Assembly: GCA_030673845.1 (NCBI GenBank)
Contig: JAUTCQ010000015.1
Location: 62,001-126,000, forward strand
Length of the DNA: 64,000 nucleotides
Origin: Verrucomicrobiota bacterium JB022
GTDB taxonomy: Bacteria; Verrucomicrobiota; Verrucomicrobiia; Opitutales; Oceanipulchritudinaceae
Direction: 5' to 3'
The notes beneath the pieces were generated by a model, which saw only the letters and a list, made by a program, of their open reading frames with translations, had not been told where the DNA came from and did no database searches. Each line of letters begins with the position of its first letter. The first letter of the stretch is position 1. Of the stretch, positions 20,537 through 27,888 are shown piece after piece. Both the position numbers and the translations under genes were made by a program.

Positions 20537-20998
20537 TTATGCCCGCACCGCTGCCTGCTTGATTTCGGGCAGCTTGCGGAACGAGACGCTGAGGCGGTTC
20601 CAGCTGTTGATCGAGGCGATGTTCCAGGTGAGGTCGACCAGCTCGGCATCGTCGAAATGCTCGGCCACTTCTTCGTAGGTGGCGTCGGGCACGCCCGTGT
20701 CGGCCAGCAGCGTCACACTCTCGGCCCATTCGAAGGCGGCACGTTCGCGAGCGGTATAGACGGGGCTCTCGCGCCAGACCACCAGCAAGTCGATCTTTTC
20801 GGTCGGCACTCCTGCTTCGCGCAGCAGGTTGATGTGCATGTTGACGCAGAACGCGCAGCCGTTGATCTGCGATACCCGGAGCTTCACCAGCTCCAGCAGC
20901 TTGTGCCCGAGGCTGCTTTGTTTGAGGTAGCCTTCGATGCTCATCTGGGCCTTCAGGGCCGGTTGTGCAAAAGGAAAGTAATCGAGTCGTGGTTCCAT
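20537..20998 (-). CDS. AhpD-like / carboxymuconolactone decarboxylase family protein
   Basis: This 153-residue all-helical protein has the AhpD-type active site QINGCAFCVNMH with a CxxC pair and nearby His, preceded by LVKLRVS and followed by VVWRESPVYTARERAAFEWAE, which is typical of the family. Members act as alkylhydroperoxidases or in related redox reactions, usually as oligomers. The gene is divergent from the MocR-type regulator at 21065 with 66 bp between starts and an inverted repeat in the gap, so that regulator probably controls it. The true substrate is unknown. Confidence 0.92.
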   Translation of the reverse strand: MEPRLDYFPFAQPALKAQMSIEGYLKQSSLGHKLLELVKLRVSQINGCAFCVNMHINLLREAGVPTEKIDLLVVWRESPVYTARERAAFEWAESVTLLADTGVPDATYEEVAEHFDDAELVDLTWNIASINSWNRLSVSFRKLPEIKQAAVRA

Positions 20999-21064: not shown

Positions 21065-22522
21065 ATGCGCCGCGCTCCTCATCAAGATATCGCCCTGCCG
21101 CCCCCTCGCCTGGGTGAGACCTGGCAACGCTGGCTCTATCGTGAGTTGCGCGACCGTATTCTGGCGGGGCAACTCCCGCCGGGCAGCCGCCTGCCCTCGA
21201 CACGCAACCTTGCCCGGCAACACACCATTGCCCGCGGTACGGTGGTGGCGGTGTATGAGCAGTTGGCGCTCGAAGGCTATGTGGAGAGCAAGGTCGGCTC
21301 TGGCAGTGTCGTGGCAAGTGCCTTGGCCAAGCCCACCCATCTCCAGCCTCCGCGTATCGAGAGCGAGCCATCGCGCCGGGCCCTACCCAAGACGAAGGCC
21401 CAACCCTTCCCGGTACGACCGGAGGGGCACGAGCAGCGGGCATTTCGGGCCAACCAGCCCGCGTTGGATGCCTTCCCGCTCGACCAGTGGGCGCGCCTGC
21501 ACGGGCGGGTCCTGCGGCGGCTGACGGCGCGCGATCTGGCCGGTGGCGACGCTCGGGGCTGGGAGCCCTTGCGAGTGGCGGTCGCAGGCTATTTGGCGCA
21601 GGCGCGGGGCATACAGGCTTCGCCGGAGCAAGTCTTCATTACCTCCGGCACCCAGCAAGCCTTCGATCTCGTGGCGCGGCTGTTGGCAAAGCCCGGCGCA
21701 CTGGCGGTGATGGAAGAGCCAGGTTACGTTGGCGCTACCCCCGTCCTGCAACAGGCGGGGTGGGGCGTCCAGCCGGTGCCGGTTGACGGCCAGGGCCTGC
21801 GGGTCGATGCACTACCAAGAGCGGCCAACCTCTGCTACGTCACCCCGGCGCACCACTTCCCGACGGGCGCTCTGCTGGGGCTGGAGCGTCGCCTGCGGCT
21901 GCTGGAGTGGGCGCGGACCACAGGAGCCTGGATCTTTGAGGACGATTACGATGGTGAATACCGCTTCGACGGGCGGCCGGTGGCGAGTCTGCAAAGCCTT
22001 GATCGCGACGGCGTGCTCTACGCTTTCACCTTTACCAAGCTGCTCTTCCCGGCGATCAGGCTGGGTTGCATGGTCGTGCCTCCGGCCTTGGTCGAGCCCT
22101 TGTTGCAATTCCGCGCCCTGGTCGATCGCTTCCCACCGGTGATCGAGCAGGCGGTGCTGGCGGAGTTTATCGCGCAGGGGCAGTTTGCGCAGCACATGCG
22201 GCGGATGCGCGAGCTGTACGCGGGCCGACGCGCCTTGTTGGCCGAGCTGGCGCAGGCGCACTGGGGCGAACGCCTGCGGCTGGAGACGGCGCATGCGGGC
22301 CTGCAGGCGGCGGCGTGGCTGCCAGCAGGGGTAGACGACTGTGAACTGGTGCGGGCGCTGCAAGAAGTGGACGTCGAGGCCCTGCCCATTTCGACCGCCT
22401 ACGCCGATCCGTTTCAGGCTCGCCACGGGCTTCTCCTGGGCTTTGCCGCCGCTTCCGAAGCGGAGTTGCGCCGTGGTGCCGAAGCGGTCGCCCGGGTGCT
22501 GGACAAATCACTCACAAAATAG
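21065..22522 (+). CDS. MocR/PdxR-family regulator (GntR HTH fused to class I aminotransferase)
   Basis: This 485-residue protein has a winged HTH at about 20-85 (LPSTRNLARQHTIARGTVVAVYEQL) and a fold-type I aminotransferase-like domain from about 125. The PLP-binding Lys is expected at residue 325 in TFTKLLFPAIRLG, and the Asp/Tyr motif DDYDGEYRFDG is intact. MocR proteins use PLP, sometimes with an amino compound, as effector rather than as enzymes. Gene order (divergent from the AhpD-like gene with a 66-bp spacer) suggests local control. Ligand and targets beyond this are unknown; PdxR-like control of PLP synthesis is possible but no pdx gene is nearby. Confidence 0.93.
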   Translation: MRRAPHQDIALPPPRLGETWQRWLYRELRDRILAGQLPPGSRLPSTRNLARQHTIARGTVVAVYEQLALEGYVESKVGSGSVVASALAKPTHLQPPRIESEPSRRALPKTKAQPFPVRPEGHEQRAFRANQPALDAFPLDQWARLHGRVLRRLTARDLAGGDARGWEPLRVAVAGYLAQARGIQASPEQVFITSGTQQAFDLVARLLAKPGALAVMEEPGYVGATPVLQQAGWGVQPVPVDGQGLRVDALPRAANLCYVTPAHHFPTGALLGLERRLRLLEWARTTGAWIFEDDYDGEYRFDGRPVASLQSLDRDGVLYAFTFTKLLFPAIRLGCMVVPPALVEPLLQFRALVDRFPPVIEQAVLAEFIAQGQFAQHMRRMRELYAGRRALLAELAQAHWGERLRLETAHAGLQAAAWLPAGVDDCELVRALQEVDVEALPISTAYADPFQARHGLLLGFAAASEAELRRGAEAVARVLDKSLTK

Positions 22523-22532
22523 TGAGCGGCAG

Positions 22533-22559
22533 TGTCCTCGCTGGCGGGGCTGTTTCGTC
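22533..22559 (+). promoter_or_regulatory. ECF42-type promoter upstream of the DUF1428 gene
   Basis: TGTCCTCGC (22533-22541), 12 bases, TTCGTC (22554-22559). An identical arrangement precedes the YCII operon at 23536-23562. The TGTC -35 and CGTC -10 agree with the type of motif reported for ECF42 sigma factors. The start codon of the DUF1428 gene is 31 bp downstream. Confidence 0.65.
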
Positions 22560-22590
22560 ATAGGGTTGAACACGCCAACCAACCCGACCT

Positions 22591-22986
22591 ATGGAAACAC
22601 AATCGACCTCTTCTGAAACGACCCAGAACCTGCCTTACGTGGACGGCTTCGTCCTCGTGATCGCGAAAGAAAACGTGGAGCAATACCGCAAGATGGCCGC
22701 CGCGGCGGGCAAGATCTGGCGCGAACACGGCGCGCTCGCCTTTATGGAAACGGTGGGCGACGACCTCGAGGCAAAGGACCATGTGCCGTTTCCGAAAATG
22801 GCGCAGGCCAAGGAGGGCGAGACCGTGGTTTTCTCGTGGATCGTCTACCAGTCGCGCGAGCAGCGCGACGCCGTGAACGCCAAGGTGATGGCCGACCAAC
22901 GCATCCATGACCTGATGCAGGGGCCCGACATCTTCGACTGCAAGCGCATCGCTTACGGCGGCTTCCGCACCATCGTCTCGCTGTAG
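22591..22986 (+). CDS. DUF1428 family protein
   Basis: This 131-residue protein matches DUF1428 (ferredoxin-like, dimeric alpha/beta barrel type) through YVDGFVLVIAKENVEQYRKMA, GALAFMETVGDD and FPKMAQAKEGETVVFSWIVY, ending MQGPDIFDCKRIAYGGFR. The function is unknown; such proteins often travel with YCII proteins and ECF sigma factors. It has its own ECF42-like promoter (22533-22559) and is followed by the DoxX-like gene in the same direction after 133 bp. Confidence 0.9.
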   Translation: METQSTSSETTQNLPYVDGFVLVIAKENVEQYRKMAAAAGKIWREHGALAFMETVGDDLEAKDHVPFPKMAQAKEGETVVFSWIVYQSREQRDAVNAKVMADQRIHDLMQGPDIFDCKRIAYGGFRTIVSL

Positions 22987-23119
22987 GAATCGCCACTCGG
23001 TCGAGGGAGGAGGGCGATCATTAGCAAGCTTGATCCGCTGCATAACTTTGCTTAACCTCCTCCCTTGCCCGGCGCGCAACGCCTGATTCTCTCCGTCCAC
23101 CTCTGATTATCCGCCCGCT

Positions 23120-23509
23120 ATGAAAATTGCCGTCAATATTGCCGGAGCCCTGCTCGGCCTCGCCTTCGTGGCTTTTGCCTTGATGTATTTCTTTATGGAG
23201 ATGCCCCAGCCGGAGTTCCCGGCAGACTCGGCGCCCGCGCACTTCAACGCCGCTTTCATGCCTACCGGCTACATGGATTTCGTGAAAGTTATGGAACTGA
23301 TCGGCGGGCTGCTCGTCGCCATCCCCATCACGCGCAACTTCGGGCTGCTGATCGTCGGGCCCATCATCGTCAACATCATCGCCTTCCACTACTTCGTGAT
23401 GGCTGGAGAAGGGCTCTTCAGCCCCATCCTCATCGCCATCGTGGTGCTCGCGCTCTTCCTGCTGCTCGCGGGCGGCAAGCGTTTCGCCGGGCTCGCGCGC
23501 GCCGACTGA
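23120..23509 (+). CDS. DoxX-like membrane protein
   Basis: This 129-residue integral membrane protein has four hydrophobic segments (about 4-26, 52-72, 74-92, 98-119). The motif YMDFVKVMELIGGLLVAIPITRNFGLLIVGPIIVNI is the DoxX/DoxD-like core, quoted in part here. DoxX-like proteins in ECF42/YCII loci are common; they are associated with redox or oxidative-stress response, but the biochemical role is unsettled. No SD-like motif stands out. It may be read from the DUF1428 promoter. Confidence 0.85.
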   Translation: MKIAVNIAGALLGLAFVAFALMYFFMEMPQPEFPADSAPAHFNAAFMPTGYMDFVKVMELIGGLLVAIPITRNFGLLIVGPIIVNIIAFHYFVMAGEGLFSPILIAIVVLALFLLLAGGKRFAGLARAD

Positions 23510-23535
23510 GTTTTTTCGTAAAAATCGCGCCGGTC

Positions 23536-23562
23536 TGTCCTCGCGCGCTCTGTTCGTTCGTC
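23536..23562 (+). promoter_or_regulatory. ECF42-type promoter upstream of the YCII-YCII-sigma operon
   Basis: TGTCCTCGC (23536-23544), 12 bases, TTCGTC (23557-23562): same sequence and spacing as the site at 22533-22559. The first YCII start codon is 30 bp downstream, almost the same distance as in the DUF1428 gene, which supports a shared promoter class and autoregulation by the sigma factor encoded in the operon. Confidence 0.68.
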
Positions 23563-23592
23563 GAGACAGTGAACCTGAAAGGAAACACGACC

Positions 23593-24006
23593 ATGGAAAC
23601 TTCTGCCGAAACCAAGACGCCCCCACAATACATGCTGCTCATCCGCAACAACGAGTGGGACCGCAATTATTCGCCGGCCGAGCTGCAAGGCGCGCTCGAC
23701 CGCATCTTCGGCTGGTTCGACAACCTCTCCGAGTCTGGCGTGATGGTGGACGGCAAGCCCCTCTTCGAGCGCTGCATGCGCGTCTCCCGCCAAGGGGGCC
23801 GTACGGTGGTCGACGGGCCGTTTGCCGAATCCAAGGAAGCCGTTGCGGGCTTCGTGATCCTCAACATCTCCACGATGGAGGAATCGGTGGAGATCGCGAG
23901 TAGCGCCCCCCATCTCGACTACGGCATGACGATCGAGGTGCGCCCCTTGGCCGAATCCTGCCCCGTCTACATGCGCACGCGCCAGTATGTCGAAGCGCTC
24001 GCCTGA
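23593..24006 (+). CDS. YCII-related (DGPF) protein, first of two
   Basis: This 137-residue protein has the YCII/DGPF domain with the hallmark VVDGPFAESKEAVAGFVIL and N-terminal MLLIRNNEW. These dimeric alpha/beta proteins are the typical partners of ECF42 sigma factors; their activity is not established. A GTG at 23569 is in frame, but AAAGGA spaced 10 bases before ATG 23593 sets the start. The gene follows an ECF42-like promoter and precedes a paralogue (22 bp) and the sigma gene, forming a three-gene operon. Confidence 0.9.
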   Translation: METSAETKTPPQYMLLIRNNEWDRNYSPAELQGALDRIFGWFDNLSESGVMVDGKPLFERCMRVSRQGGRTVVDGPFAESKEAVAGFVILNISTMEESVEIASSAPHLDYGMTIEVRPLAESCPVYMRTRQYVEALA

Positions 24007-24027
24007 ACCTTTTACCGATCGTACACT

Positions 24028-24453
24028 ATGGAATCTGACGGCTTGAAAGCACTGCACGACGCCCAACCCGACTACATGATCCTCTTCCGTGGCTCGGAGT
24101 GGACTCTGGGTTGCCCGCCCGACGAGATGGAGGCCCTCATGAACAACGTGATGGAGTGGTTTGAAGGGCTCTATCGCCAGAACAAGGTCAAGCTGGGCCA
24201 CCCGTTGACCGACGAAACTTCCCTGGTATCGCACCGCGAAGGGCAAACGGTGGTCGACGGGCCTTTTGCCGAGACCAAGGAGGCCATCGGCGGCTTCCTG
24301 ATCCTCAACGTCGAAACCCGCGAAGAGGCGATTGAGATCGCTGCCAGCGGCCCTTGGGTGCCCTACGGTATGAAGGTGGAGGTGCGCCAGATCGCCACCG
24401 CCTGCCCGCTGCTGGCTCGGGTAAAGCAACTCGCCGCTGCCGAAACAGCCTGA
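24028..24453 (+). CDS. YCII-related (DGPF) protein, second of two
   Basis: This 141-residue paralogue of the preceding protein has MILFRGSEW near the N-terminus and VVDGPFAETKEAIGGFLIL in the centre. The pair shares the pattern of charged residues around DGPF but differs in length and in the loop following the first helix, so they may form a heterodimer. It lies 21 bp after the first copy and 13 bp before the sigma-factor gene. Function unknown; expression is expected to depend on the ECF42-like promoter at 23536. Confidence 0.9.
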   Translation: MESDGLKALHDAQPDYMILFRGSEWTLGCPPDEMEALMNNVMEWFEGLYRQNKVKLGHPLTDETSLVSHREGQTVVDGPFAETKEAIGGFLILNVETREEAIEIAASGPWVPYGMKVEVRQIATACPLLARVKQLAAAETA

Positions 24454-24466
24454 TCGGCCTGATGCC

Positions 24467-25768
24467 ATGACGGCCACGCCCGCCCAACCTGTGCCGGTGC
24501 ACCGCGATGTGCCGCGCCTCACCGCCCACCTCTTCCGGCAGGAAGCGGGTCGACTCGTCTCGATGCTCACCGGCATCTTCGGGCTCGACCGCCTGCAGCT
24601 GGCCGAAGATGTGGTGCAGGATGCGATGGTGCGGGCGCTGCAGGTGTGGCCCTACCACGGCGTGCCCGACGAGCCGGCCGCGTGGCTCTTCCAGACCGCC
24701 CGGCGCCTCGCGCTCGACGCGATCCGCCGCGAGCGCACCTTCCGCATCAAGCAGCCGCAGATCGTGACCAACGTCGAGCAGCAGTTGAGCACGCTCGACA
24801 CGTCCGACCCGATGTTCGAGGCCGAGGTGCGCGATGCCCGACTGCGGCTGATCTTCGCCTGTTGCCACCCGGCCCTGCCGGAAGAAGCGCAGGTGGCCCT
24901 CGCGCTCAAGACTCTGGGCGGTTTCAGCACCAGCGAAATTGCCCGCGCCTTCCTCTGTGCCGAGCCTGCCATGGCCAAGCGCCTGACCCGTGCGCGTCAG
25001 AAGATCCGCGACGAGGCGATCCCGCTCGAAATCCCGGCTGGCCCGGAGCTGCGCGAGCGGCAGGAGGGCGTGCTCAAGGTGCTCTACCTGCTCTTCAACG
25101 AGGGCTACCACGCCACCAGCGGCGAGCGCATGATCAAGGAAGAGATCTGCGCCGAAGCCATCCGCCTCGCGCGCATGGTCGTCGAGCACCCCGCCGCTGT
25201 GTCGCCGCCCGCCCACGCGCTGCTGGCCCTCATGCTCTTTACCGAGGCCCGCCGTCAGGCCCGGATCGACGACAACGGCAACCTGATGCGGCTCAGCGAG
25301 CAGGACCGCACGCAGTGGAATTACGGCCTCATCGGCGAAGGGCTGATGCAGCTCAACGCGGCCGCCCGGGGCGAGGACTTGACCGAGTATCACCTGCAGG
25401 CCGCCATCGCCGCCTGCCACTGCACCGCCCGCGAATACGAACAGACCGACTGGGGCCGCATCCTGCGCCTCTACGACCAACTGGTGCAGCTCAACGAGTC
25501 ACCCGTTTACGCGCTCAACCGTGCGGTGGCCGTGGGGCAGGTCTTTGGCCCCGCCGCCGGCATGGAGGCCATCGAAAGCCTGATCAATCGCCACCAGCTC
25601 GATTCCTACCACCTGCTCTACGCGGTCATGGGCGACTTCGAGGCGCGTTTGGAGCACTTCCAGCAAGCGGCCGACCATTGGGAAGAAGCCCTCCGCCTCA
25701 CCTCTCTCCCCACCGAGCAAGCCCACCTCCGCCAACGCCTCCGTGAACTAGGCCGCGATGGGGCTTGA
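24467..25768 (+). CDS. ECF sigma factor, ECF42-type with C-terminal TPR-like extension
   Basis: This 433-residue protein is about twice the size of a plain ECF sigma factor. Region 2 is at about 15-85 (LAEDVVQDAMVRALQVWP, then PAAWLFQTARRLALDAIRRER). Region 4 is at about 120-185 (EEAQVALALKTLGGFSTSEIA). The C-terminal extension (about 190-430) starts with the hallmark LKVLYLLFNEGYHATSG and continues as helical, TPR-like repeats (YALNRAVAVGQVFGPAAGMEAIE). No anti-sigma factor is nearby, and in this group the extension is thought to control activity. It ends the YCII-YCII-sigma operon, whose promoter matches the site upstream of DUF1428. Assignment to ECF42 rests on domain layout and gene context. 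Confidence 0.92.
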   Translation: MTATPAQPVPVHRDVPRLTAHLFRQEAGRLVSMLTGIFGLDRLQLAEDVVQDAMVRALQVWPYHGVPDEPAAWLFQTARRLALDAIRRERTFRIKQPQIVTNVEQQLSTLDTSDPMFEAEVRDARLRLIFACCHPALPEEAQVALALKTLGGFSTSEIARAFLCAEPAMAKRLTRARQKIRDEAIPLEIPAGPELRERQEGVLKVLYLLFNEGYHATSGERMIKEEICAEAIRLARMVVEHPAAVSPPAHALLALMLFTEARRQARIDDNGNLMRLSEQDRTQWNYGLIGEGLMQLNAAARGEDLTEYHLQAAIAACHCTAREYEQTDWGRILRLYDQLVQLNESPVYALNRAVAVGQVFGPAAGMEAIESLINRHQLDSYHLLYAVMGDFEARLEHFQQAADHWEEALRLTSLPTEQAHLRQRLRELGRDGA

Positions 25769-25905: not shown

Positions 25906-26769
25906 TTATTTTTGAACCGCCTGTCGGCAAAACGCTACAAAGCGCTCGAAGGCGGCGCTGTGGTATTTTTGGCGGTGCCAGAAGAGGGAGAAGGTGCGGC
26001 GTAGGGCGAGGCCGGGCCAGGGGACGGGGACGACGTAGCCGAGCTCCAGCTCGCGGACAATGACACGGCGGGAGAGGCAGCCGAGGCCGAGGCCCGCTTC
26101 GACGGCTTTCTTGATCGCCTCGGTGTGGCCCAGCTCCAGCCGCAGGTGGATGGGGTGGCCGGCGGCGCGCATGGCTTGCTCAAATACCTCGCGGGTGCCC
26201 GAGCCCGGTTCGCGCATGATCCATTGGGCGGCGTCGAGCGAGACGTTCGCTTGCGCGGGTGCGGCGAAGACCACCAGCTCATCGTCGGTCCAAACGCTTT
26301 CGACCAAGTCCGAGTGGCTGACGGGGCCTTCGACCAGCGCGAGGTCGAGCCGGTGCTCCAGCAGGTGGCGGATGATCGACTGGGTGTTGTTGACCTCCAG
26401 CTGCACCTGGATCGCGGGGCAGGCGTTGGCAAACGCTCCTACGATGCCCGGCAGGAGGTAATTGCCAATGGTGGTGCTGGCCCCGACGCGCAGGTGCCCG
26501 GCCGGTTGGCCGTCGGCCATGCCCGCTTCGATTTCCTCCGCCCGGTCGAGCAGCGCCAGCACTTTGGGCAGGAGCAGACGGCCGTGCTCGTTGAGCACGA
26601 TGCGCCGGGCGATGCGGTCGAAGAGGGGGTAGCCGATCACGTTTTCGAGCTCGCCCAAAGCCATACTGGCGGCAGAAGGCGAGAGGGACAGTTCCTCCGC
26701 CGCGCGCCCGATATGCTCGTGCACCGCGACGGCGGCAAAGATCTCCAGTTGGCGCAGGGTAAGGTTCAT
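25906..26769 (-). CDS. LysR-family transcriptional regulator (YeiE/CysL-like)
   Basis: This 287-residue regulator has an N-terminal winged HTH (LRQLEIFAAVAVHEHIGRAAEELSLSPSAASMALGELE, in part) and a periplasmic-binding-protein-like effector domain from about 90. It is divergent from the YeiH-type exporter gene (26860) with 90 bp between starts. This is the same arrangement as yeiE/yeiH of enterobacteria and CysL-type regulators elsewhere, so it very likely controls that gene in response to sulfite or a related sulfur compound. An ATTCA-N7-TGAAT dyad overlaps its own start codon. Confidence 0.93.
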   Translation of the reverse strand: MNLTLRQLEIFAAVAVHEHIGRAAEELSLSPSAASMALGELENVIGYPLFDRIARRIVLNEHGRLLLPKVLALLDRAEEIEAGMADGQPAGHLRVGASTTIGNYLLPGIVGAFANACPAIQVQLEVNNTQSIIRHLLEHRLDLALVEGPVSHSDLVESVWTDDELVVFAAPAQANVSLDAAQWIMREPGSGTREVFEQAMRAAGHPIHLRLELGHTEAIKKAVEAGLGLGCLSRRVIVRELELGYVVPVPWPGLALRRTFSLFWHRQKYHSAAFERFVAFCRQAVQK

Positions 26770-26859: not shown

Positions 26860-27888
26860 ATGAATCCTGCCCATCCGCAAACCGCCCCCCACGCTCACCT
26901 GCTGCCCGGCCTGCTCCTGACCGGGGCCGTGGCCGCTGTCGGCTTTGCGCTGGCGCAGCTGCCGAGCCTGCAGGCATTGCACCTCTCGCCGCTGGTGCTA
27001 GCCATCGTGGTCGGCCTGCTGGTGGGCAACCTCAGCGGGCGCTTTTACCCGGCAGCGGCACATCCGGGGGTGGGCTTTTGCCAAAAACGCATCCTGCGGC
27101 TGGCCATCGTGCTTTTCGGGTTCCGGGTCACGTTTCAACAGATTGCCGGGGTGGGGCTGGCGGGGCTCGCGGCCGATGTCGTCATGCTGTGTAGCACGCT
27201 CGTGCTGGGCCTGTGGCTGGGGCGTCGGGTCTTTGGGCTGGACCGCGATACAGCAATCCTGTGCGCGGCGGGCAGCTCGATCTGCGGGGCGGCGGCCATC
27301 CTCGCGACCGAGCCGGTGTTGAAGCCCGCGCCGCACAAGGTGACGGTTGCCGTCGGCACGGTGGTGCTCTTCGGCTCGCTGGCGATGTTTGCCTACCCGG
27401 CGCTCTATCACTGGGCAGGGATGGACGCCCACCAGTTTGGCATCTACACGGGCTCGACCGTGCACGAAGTGGCGCAAGTCGTGGCAGTCGGTGGCGCGGT
27501 GGGCGGCGGCACGGCGGAGACAGCGGTGATCGTGAAGCTCGCCCGCGTAATGTTGCTCGCGCCCTTCCTGCTCGTGCTGAGTTGTTGTCTGAGCCGGGAG
27601 GGTGGGGAAGCTCGCCGCGCTATCACCATCCCGTGGTTTGCGGTGCTGTTTGTGGTCGTGGCGGGCATCAACTCGCTCAACCTGCTGCCGTCCGCGCTGG
27701 TGCAGGGCATTGTGTGGCTCGATACGGTGCTGCTGACCCTCTCGATGGCCGCGCTGGGCCTCGATTCGCGCTTCAGCCGGTTTCGGGGCGTCGGAGCGGG
27801 GCCGATCTACTGCGGCCTGGCGATGTTTGCCTGGCTTATTGCGGGGGGTTGGGCCGTGAATACCTTGCTCTGCCGGTGGTGGGGGTGA
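26860..27888 (+). CDS. yeiH: YeiH/UPF0324 family putative sulfate (sulfite) exporter
   Basis: This 342-residue integral membrane protein has about ten hydrophobic segments. It matches the UPF0324 family through FRVTFQQIAGVG, the charged DRDTAILCAAGSSICGAAAI and the motif GIYTGSTVHEVAQVVAVGGAVG, all typical of YeiH. The family is annotated as a sulfate or sulfite exporter, largely from association with LysR regulators of sulfur metabolism and taurine or sulfonate genes. A divergent LysR gene lies 90 bp away, as in other genomes. The next 400 bp downstream hold repeat A3 and no gene. Confidence 0.92.
   Translation: MNPAHPQTAPHAHLLPGLLLTGAVAAVGFALAQLPSLQALHLSPLVLAIVVGLLVGNLSGRFYPAAAHPGVGFCQKRILRLAIVLFGFRVTFQQIAGVGLAGLAADVVMLCSTLVLGLWLGRRVFGLDRDTAILCAAGSSICGAAAILATEPVLKPAPHKVTVAVGTVVLFGSLAMFAYPALYHWAGMDAHQFGIYTGSTVHEVAQVVAVGGAVGGGTAETAVIVKLARVMLLAPFLLVLSCCLSREGGEARRAITIPWFAVLFVVVAGINSLNLLPSALVQGIVWLDTVLLTLSMAALGLDSRFSRFRGVGAGPIYCGLAMFAWLIAGGWAVNTLLCRWWG

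Follow-up and report, generated by a model that had tools for sequence, protein, structure and literature searches.

Introduction

A 64,000-nucleotide stretch of the genome of Verrucomicrobiota bacterium JB022 (contig JAUTCQ010000015.1, positions 62,001 to 126,000; hereafter the window) carries a DUF1428 gene, a gene for a small DoxX-like protein, two YCII (DGPF) genes and a gene for a sigma factor of the extracytoplasmic function (ECF) group ECF42, which raises the question of whether this sigma factor controls both its own operon and the DUF1428 gene. An earlier note on this DNA had proposed such a regulon from two identical promoter sites. Our comparative sequence analysis points to a small ECF42 regulon in which the window sigma factor would read both promoters and thereby control its own operon and DUF1428, a reading to which we give a probability of about 0.87.

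Results

Two copies of one motif precede the DUF1428 gene and the YCII-YCII-sigma operon

The pattern TGTCCTCGC-N12-TTCGTC is found exactly at 22533 and 23536, and these two forward matches, with none on the reverse strand, are the only ones in the whole 4.35-Mb assembly (97% complete), in which the reversed pattern has no match; 100 shuffles of the window gave a mean of 0.00 matches. The sites stand 31 nt (DUF1428) and 30 nt (YCII-YCII-sigma) ahead of the ATG, exactly as the earlier note had stated (Table 1). For the first YCII protein, ATG 23593 was preferred over GTG 23569 because the latter lies at the predicted transcript start.

Both sites have the ECF42 promoter layout TGTC-N19-CGTC. 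The genome scan that had been suggested, TGTC-N17/18-CGTC, would miss them since the spacing is actually N19, and even at N19 the eight bare bases are at background genome-wide (59 matches versus 65 for the reversed control). A loose TGTC-N16..19-CGTC scan of the window gave a chance-level result (11 matches versus 9.9 expected) and was dropped as a stand-alone test.

Table 1. Features of the locus (window coordinates) and further candidate promoter sites in the same genome (contig:position).
Feature	Position	Strand	Remarks
Predicted ECF42 promoter 1	22533..22559	+	TGTCCTCGCTGGCGGGGCTGTTTCGTC; -35 TGTCCT, -10 TTCGTC; precedes DUF1428
TGAA start-site (core-recognition-like) element, promoter 1	22567..22570	+	
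DUF1428 gene	22591..22986	+	Pfam PF07237, E 3.8e-36; relative of E. coli YbaA (PDB 2okq) by sequence
DoxX-like small protein	23120..23509	+	No own promoter site; may be a member by read-through
Predicted ECF42 promoter 2	23536..23562	+	TGTCCTCGCGCGCTCTGTTCGTTCGTC; -35 TGTCCT, -10 TTCGTC; precedes YCII-YCII-sigma; predicted autoregulatory
TGAA start-site (core-recognition-like) element, promoter 2	23570..23573	+	
YCII (DGPF) protein 1	23593..24006	+	Pfam PF03795
YCII (DGPF) protein 2	24028..24453	+	Pfam PF03795; related by sequence to PA1349 (PDB 1s7i)
ECF42-type sigma factor, 433 aa	24467..25768	+	Region 2, region 4, DUF6596, helical TPR-like extension; K171 in recognition helix
Composite site	C5:7262-7299		Precedes second YCII-sigma operon
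Composite site	C6:17902		Precedes two VOC genes (VOC-VOC)
Weaker candidate	C16:52305		Precedes stand-alone YCII gene
Weaker candidate	C1:34490		Precedes DUF899; 14/18 positions, no TGAA

The sigma factor has the domain layout of ECF42

Pfam upheld the earlier calls of DUF1428, YCII, YCII and sigma genes. In the sigma factor, PF04542 (Sigma70_r2) and PF08281 (Sigma70_r4_2) were the only sigma regions above the cut-off, DUF6596 spans residues 198-300, and Pfam gave no SnoaL match, so that the C-terminal SnoaL_2 domain of ECF41-type factors was not found. Sequence matches in the PDB comprise 11 structures, all of sigma factors, aligning within residues 6-187. In an AlphaFold2 model built from 9 sequences (mean pLDDT 82.8, pTM 0.79), residues 193-427 are almost wholly helical, and the top PDB fold matches of this model are mostly TPR proteins, the best being a consensus TPR superhelix at E 2.2e-3 and none reaching E <= 1e-3. 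Weak TPR_7 and TPR_2 matches, below the cut-off, are found in a paralogue encoded on contig C5 of the same genome. The length (about 200 residues) and the modelled helical fold of the C-terminal extension are firm, the TPR label less so.

Two YCII genes, identified by Pfam, lie directly upstream of the sigma gene, and no anti-sigma gene was recognised in the operon or adjoining it, where the neighbours are YCII and a convergent LysR regulator; a small reservation comes from the DoxX-like protein, which is unmatched in Pfam. These features bear out the ECF42 layout that had been read from the sequence. Among named relatives of the sigma factor, the best, with 51% identity, comes from a Verrucomicrobiia metagenome-assembled genome.

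The sites are conserved and co-occur with the sigma factor

In a sister species (G016), whose sigma factor is 77% identical and whose DUF1428 gene lies 1.5 kb upstream of the sigma gene, both sites are kept: in the aligned promoters TGTCCT is retained, as are most of the -10 and, in the start-site element described below, the TG, while the spacers have diverged. The DUF1428 site of this species ends in TTCGTT and its YCII site in TGCGTC. The motif is thus conserved in an orthologous locus, the point on which the earlier note had said its proposal could fall. The sigma factor occurs in 4 of 17 family genomes, and DUF1428, searched for in 19 relatives (13 from the family), occurs in the same four (G000, G016, G010 and G011), within ~1.5 kb of the sigma gene in every one. 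A second DUF1428 match, broken-looking, is present elsewhere in G011.

The window sigma factor was then used as the query against 384 genomes of the class (E <= 1e-40, at most 4 candidates scored per genome) and gave matches in 76, a search in which a distant second sigma factor per genome could be missed. The 85 loci kept are the window, the paralogue of its own genome (L088), 3 family loci and 80 others; about two dozen listed matches were excluded, mostly the lowest-scoring ones plus some that were split or truncated. The sigma strand of these loci holds TGTC-N19-CGTC 81 times, against 16 on the opposite strand and 6-30 at other spacings, and TGTC-N17-TTCGTC (total spacing 19) occurs 60 times on the sigma strand versus 0-5 times at 14 other spacings. 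A motif-free count of 4+4 dyads upstream of sigma, YCII, DUF1428 and DoxX-like open reading frames (ORFs) placed TGTCC/TTCGT first in 65 loci of one sigma clade (clade A, below), where it was present in 37 loci. YCII-labelled ORFs are found in 83 of the 85 loci, some VOC proteins being included under this label.

Eighteen fixed positions (TGTCCT, C, TTCGTC, T, TGAA) make up a composite pattern, which was matched with at most one mismatch in 43 of the 384 genomes, spanning 28 genera, and the reversed control gave 2 matches in one genome. The 43 all fall within the 76 genomes that have a sigma match, versus 0 of the 308 that have none (Fisher p 2e-36, kinship ignored). A looser composite pattern, with 3 mismatches, was noisy against its reversed control in four family genomes (own genome 24/10, G016 25/17, G010 25/15, G011 29/14). 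Five TGTC-N19-CG[AT]C places, none of them with TGAA, are present in the ten named loci L035-L044, of which nine come by title from outside Verrucomicrobiia; these are too few to say more. Altogether, these comparative data support a promoter motif common to the two predicted transcription units and, as a prediction, autoregulation.

A TGAA element follows the -10 at a constant spacing

Among 59 sites picked by TGTCC and TTCGTC alone, 35 have TGAA exactly 8-11 nt past CGTC, against 0-1 at each of the other offsets tried, and over 66 sites the T and the G at 8-9 nt past CGTC are kept in 83% and 85%, respectively. In clade-B loci, TGAA follows 9 of 22 TGTCG-N18-CG[AT]C places. Because its distance to the ATG varies widely, TGAA belongs to the promoter rather than to translation. 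Since the ECF42-dependent start of SMc01149 in Sinorhizobium meliloti is placed 9 nt after CGTC (PMC6180224), TGAA would cover the likely start, and since core RNA polymerase contacts nontemplate T +1 and G +2 in the ECF sigma-L complex of Mycobacterium tuberculosis as described in PMC6372665, we read the TG as a putative core-recognition element (CRE). Here TG follows the -10 at a constant spacing; unlike in that complex, it extends to TGAA and recurs in many promoters of a single class. By this analogy, TGAA most likely reflects start-site selection by core RNA polymerase, with a predicted start register uncertain by one base. The start distance of about 7 bp after TTCGTC that had been proposed is probably 1-2 nt short, judging from the SMc01149 start and from TGAA at 8-11 nt.

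The sites precede a recurrent set of gene families

We scored 99 sites at 14 or more of the 18 positions, versus 0 for the reversed consensus; 85 are in sigma loci and 14 come from loci chosen for a motif match, the survey having taken in 29 composite-scan loci (L228-L256) and four own-genome loci pre-picked by motif (L089, L093, L095, L098). They precede genes for YCII (38), VOC/glyoxalase (three clusters of 11, 6 and 2), DUF899 (10), AHSA1 (8), DUF1428 (6), DUF1579 (5), BNR-repeat (3) and polyketide-cyclase-like (3) proteins, proteins unmatched in Pfam by the member searched (2) and singletons (5). Families were named by Pfam from representatives rather than from every member, and counted by protein clusters, the YCII profile having strayed into VOC (in one VOC cluster of 11, 10 members were YCII-labelled). 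Most sites (89 of 99) lie 20-75 nt ahead of the chosen start codon. Two singletons, in L166 and L185, are probably wrong frames of YCII-led transcripts, L166 being YCII-labelled in another ORF annotation. In three loci (L144, at 1448-2611, L166 and L173), an ECF42-type site is followed by a gene for a BNR-repeat (sialidase-like) protein, 371-388 aa long.

When co-directional runs led by a site were considered, which were built on ORFs and not on curated genes, 17 of 28 DUF1428 genes fell into such a run, and none did with the reversed consensus. Together with the adjacency to the sigma gene in 4/4 family genomes, this supports the placement of DUF1428 in the regulon, as had been predicted.

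Two sigma clades differ in the fifth base of the -35

The sigma tree separates a clade A of 66 rows, with L204 and the window sigma factor, from a clade B of 19 rows, with the C5 paralogue (SH-aLRT 100); L204 and L212 sit on long branches, and L204 was omitted from the clade counts. At sites with TG at the start-site position, the fifth -35 base is C in 48 of 52 sites of clade-A loci and G in 11 of 15 sites of clade-B loci, where a locus may contain targets of both clades. Residue 171 of the recognition helix is K in 64 of 65 clade-A proteins (the exception being L192), and all 19 clade-B proteins have Q there. By analogy with E. coli sigma-E, this position would face the -35. Residue 171 as the -35 discriminator is a hypothesis drawn from these alignments, in which the clade and both traits are confounded by descent.

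We tentatively suggest, at somewhat less than even odds, that ECF42 promoters of this class have three parts, TGTC(C/G) and CG(T/A)C being read by the sigma factor and a similarly conserved TGAA by the core enzyme, and that co-resident paralogues are insulated mainly by Lys171/TGTCC versus Gln/TGTCG, so that a single cell would run two regulons of the same type in parallel, both recruiting from one set of protein families.

A clade-B version of the composite, at up to one mismatch, gave 15 sites in 13 genomes and looked meaningful, with one of these genomes (G059) lacking a listed sigma match; at up to two mismatches it reached 56 of the 384 genomes but was set aside, many of its matches being evidently due to chance and the reversed control giving about 11. 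A tree-wide label test that included rows labelled "none" was blurred by site-less loci. In many clade-B loci (L205-L222), TGTCGAA-N-CGAC lies past the sigma gene and ahead of a YCII gene downstream of it, and there the sigma gene itself is therefore not behind the site. Within clade B, the residue aligned to position 80 of the window sigma factor is F or H mostly with a -10 of CGAC and N or R with CGTC; with L205 and the H of clade A as exceptions, this is a lead only.

Other candidate targets lie elsewhere in the genome

The composite at up to 3 mismatches marks five places in the whole genome, versus 0 for the control, and two of them are the window sites (Table 1). The window sigma factor probably also drives the distant VOC-VOC pair, DUF899 and the stand-alone YCII gene. 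The VOC pair has one match in G016, with a site 166 nt upstream of the gene start, and DUF899 as a target is supported by a DUF899 gene between sigma and DUF1428 in G010 and by a site-led one beside sigma in G328. The place at C1:111495, ahead of an HlyD-type membrane-fusion gene, was treated as probable chance. The second ECF42 operon (YCII-sigma; G000:C5, locus L088 1618-3301, minus strand) encodes a clade-B sigma factor; its promoter, TGTCGTTTTGGCGGGTGCGCGTTCGTC, ends 23 nt before the YCII ATG, has the same -10 as the window sites and has TGAA behind it.

Discussion

How the window regulon may work, and what else could explain the sites

In the mechanism that we propose, the window sigma factor would direct RNA polymerase to the two near-identical promoters; transcription from promoter 2 would yield YCII-YCII-sigma and thereby a positive feedback, and transcription from promoter 1 would yield DUF1428. 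A partner meeting the TPR-like extension would probably set the activity of the sigma factor, with the YCII proteins as the best candidates, an idea that we take from the ECF42 literature: section 3.5.2 of the review PMC8999054 describes a proposed switch by a protein partner on the TPR extension, YCII being suspected, and the ECF42 signal is left unsettled there.

Several observations weigh against this regulon. In S. meliloti, the SMc01151-rpoE10 (YCII-rpoE10) operon is reported as unchanged on RpoE10 overexpression despite its motif (PMC6180224), and by analogy autoregulation may fail here too. Some of the sites could be read by the C5 paralogue, the other ECF42 sigma factor of the genome. 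A composite match at up to one mismatch is absent from 33 of the 76 sigma-positive genomes of the class; 17 of the 33 come from a single family (f3) of the window's order, in which TGTCCGG is the sequence at several sites. Only 5 of 28 DUF1428 genes have a site directly ahead, L184 being a sixth in the cluster survey. As for DUF899, G016 lacks such a gene, and G003, though it has no sigma match, carries one.

The S. meliloti result, an operon that did not respond to its sigma factor, is the precedent for a locus in which the DUF1428 promoter is active and the YCII-YCII-sigma site idle, without autoregulation. We regard this as unlikely, since the S. meliloti motif overlaps its own start site according to PMC6180224, whereas the site here is followed by a start-site element and, after 30 nt, by the ATG, and this layout recurs, 38 of the 99 scored sites lying ahead of YCII genes. 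Slightly less likely still in our view is that the clade-B sigma factor of C5 reads the window promoters, alone or in cross-talk with the window sigma factor, which would then not be their main driver: both factors use TGTC-N19-CGTC with TGAA, and the C5 promoter shares the -10, but the fifth -35 base differs by clade and tracks residue 171 (K versus Q), and G016 keeps both sites with a single sigma match (E <= 1e-40), which is of clade A. The sites might finally be operators of an ordinary regulator, such as the MocR/PdxR-like protein whose gene ends just upstream of site 1, or copies of a dispersed repeat, instead of promoters. This is hardly credible given their co-occurrence with the sigma factor (43 versus 0 genomes), their strand-bound ECF layout, their diverged spacers and their position, for 89 of 99, shortly before start codons.

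The preferred reading, in which the window sigma factor drives both promoters, leaves the place of the DoxX-like gene evenly balanced between full membership, by read-through from the DUF1428 promoter, and none. Pfam matched nothing in the protein at a cut-off as loose as E <= 0.1, and its identity comes only through kin in related loci, one of which matches Pfam DoxX at 22.4 bits, under the 23.6 cut-off. No terminator-like or sigma-70-like site was found in the gap between DUF1428 and this gene (22986-23120), 10 of 23 DoxX-like genes fall in site-led runs, and DoxX-like and DUF1428 genes recur together at sigma loci, which all favour read-through; the gap nevertheless measures 133 nt, and a site at a score of at least 13 stands immediately ahead of none of 21 DoxX-like genes, except that the one in L188 has a site if a later start is chosen. 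For the earlier suggestion that DoxX perhaps joins the regulon, our data thus give support only in the form of a possible read-through.

Neighbouring genes

Upstream of the locus, a MocR/PdxR-like regulator gene (21065-22522, +), with its stop codon 10 nt ahead of promoter 1, is divergent from a carboxymuconolactone-decarboxylase/AhpD-like gene (20540-20998, -). Downstream, a YeiE-like LysR regulator gene (25909-26769, -) is divergent from a membrane protein gene (26860-27888, +), the product of which we take from its appearance to be a YeiH-type transporter.

Relation to known ECF systems and significance

The closest described parallel is RpoE10 of S. meliloti, which as presented in PMC6180224 also has a C-terminal TPR extension, a YCII gene directly upstream, no identifiable anti-sigma gene nearby, TGTC-N19-CGTC promoters and glyoxalase-like and ligand-binding targets, and which raises glyoxalase-like genes. 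It differs in its -35, TGTCGG in S. meliloti and TGTCCT here, and in that the promoters printed in PMC6180224 have no TGAA behind the -10; DUF1428 does not appear in the main text of that paper. An extension of about 200 residues rich in TPR and a conserved YCII neighbour are likewise described, in PMC8999054, for Sven_0747, Sven_7131 and Sven_4377 of Streptomyces venezuelae and for ECF-10 of Pseudomonas putida. With ECF41 the window sigma factor would share a C-terminal extension that is thought to regulate instead of an anti-sigma factor (PMC8103513), but SigJ as described there bears SnoaL_2, and the extension here consists of DUF6596 and TPR-like helices. The locus is most likely a solid new branch of the known stress-type (ECF42) regulon and not a new kind of system.

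The class-wide regulon list (YCII, DUF1428, VOC, DUF899, AHSA1 and DUF1579) would mean that orphan families share a regulator, and with it a shared physiological cue to seek, while the clade-linked -35 base, residue 171 and the start-site element may give single-substitution access to ECF promoter discrimination.

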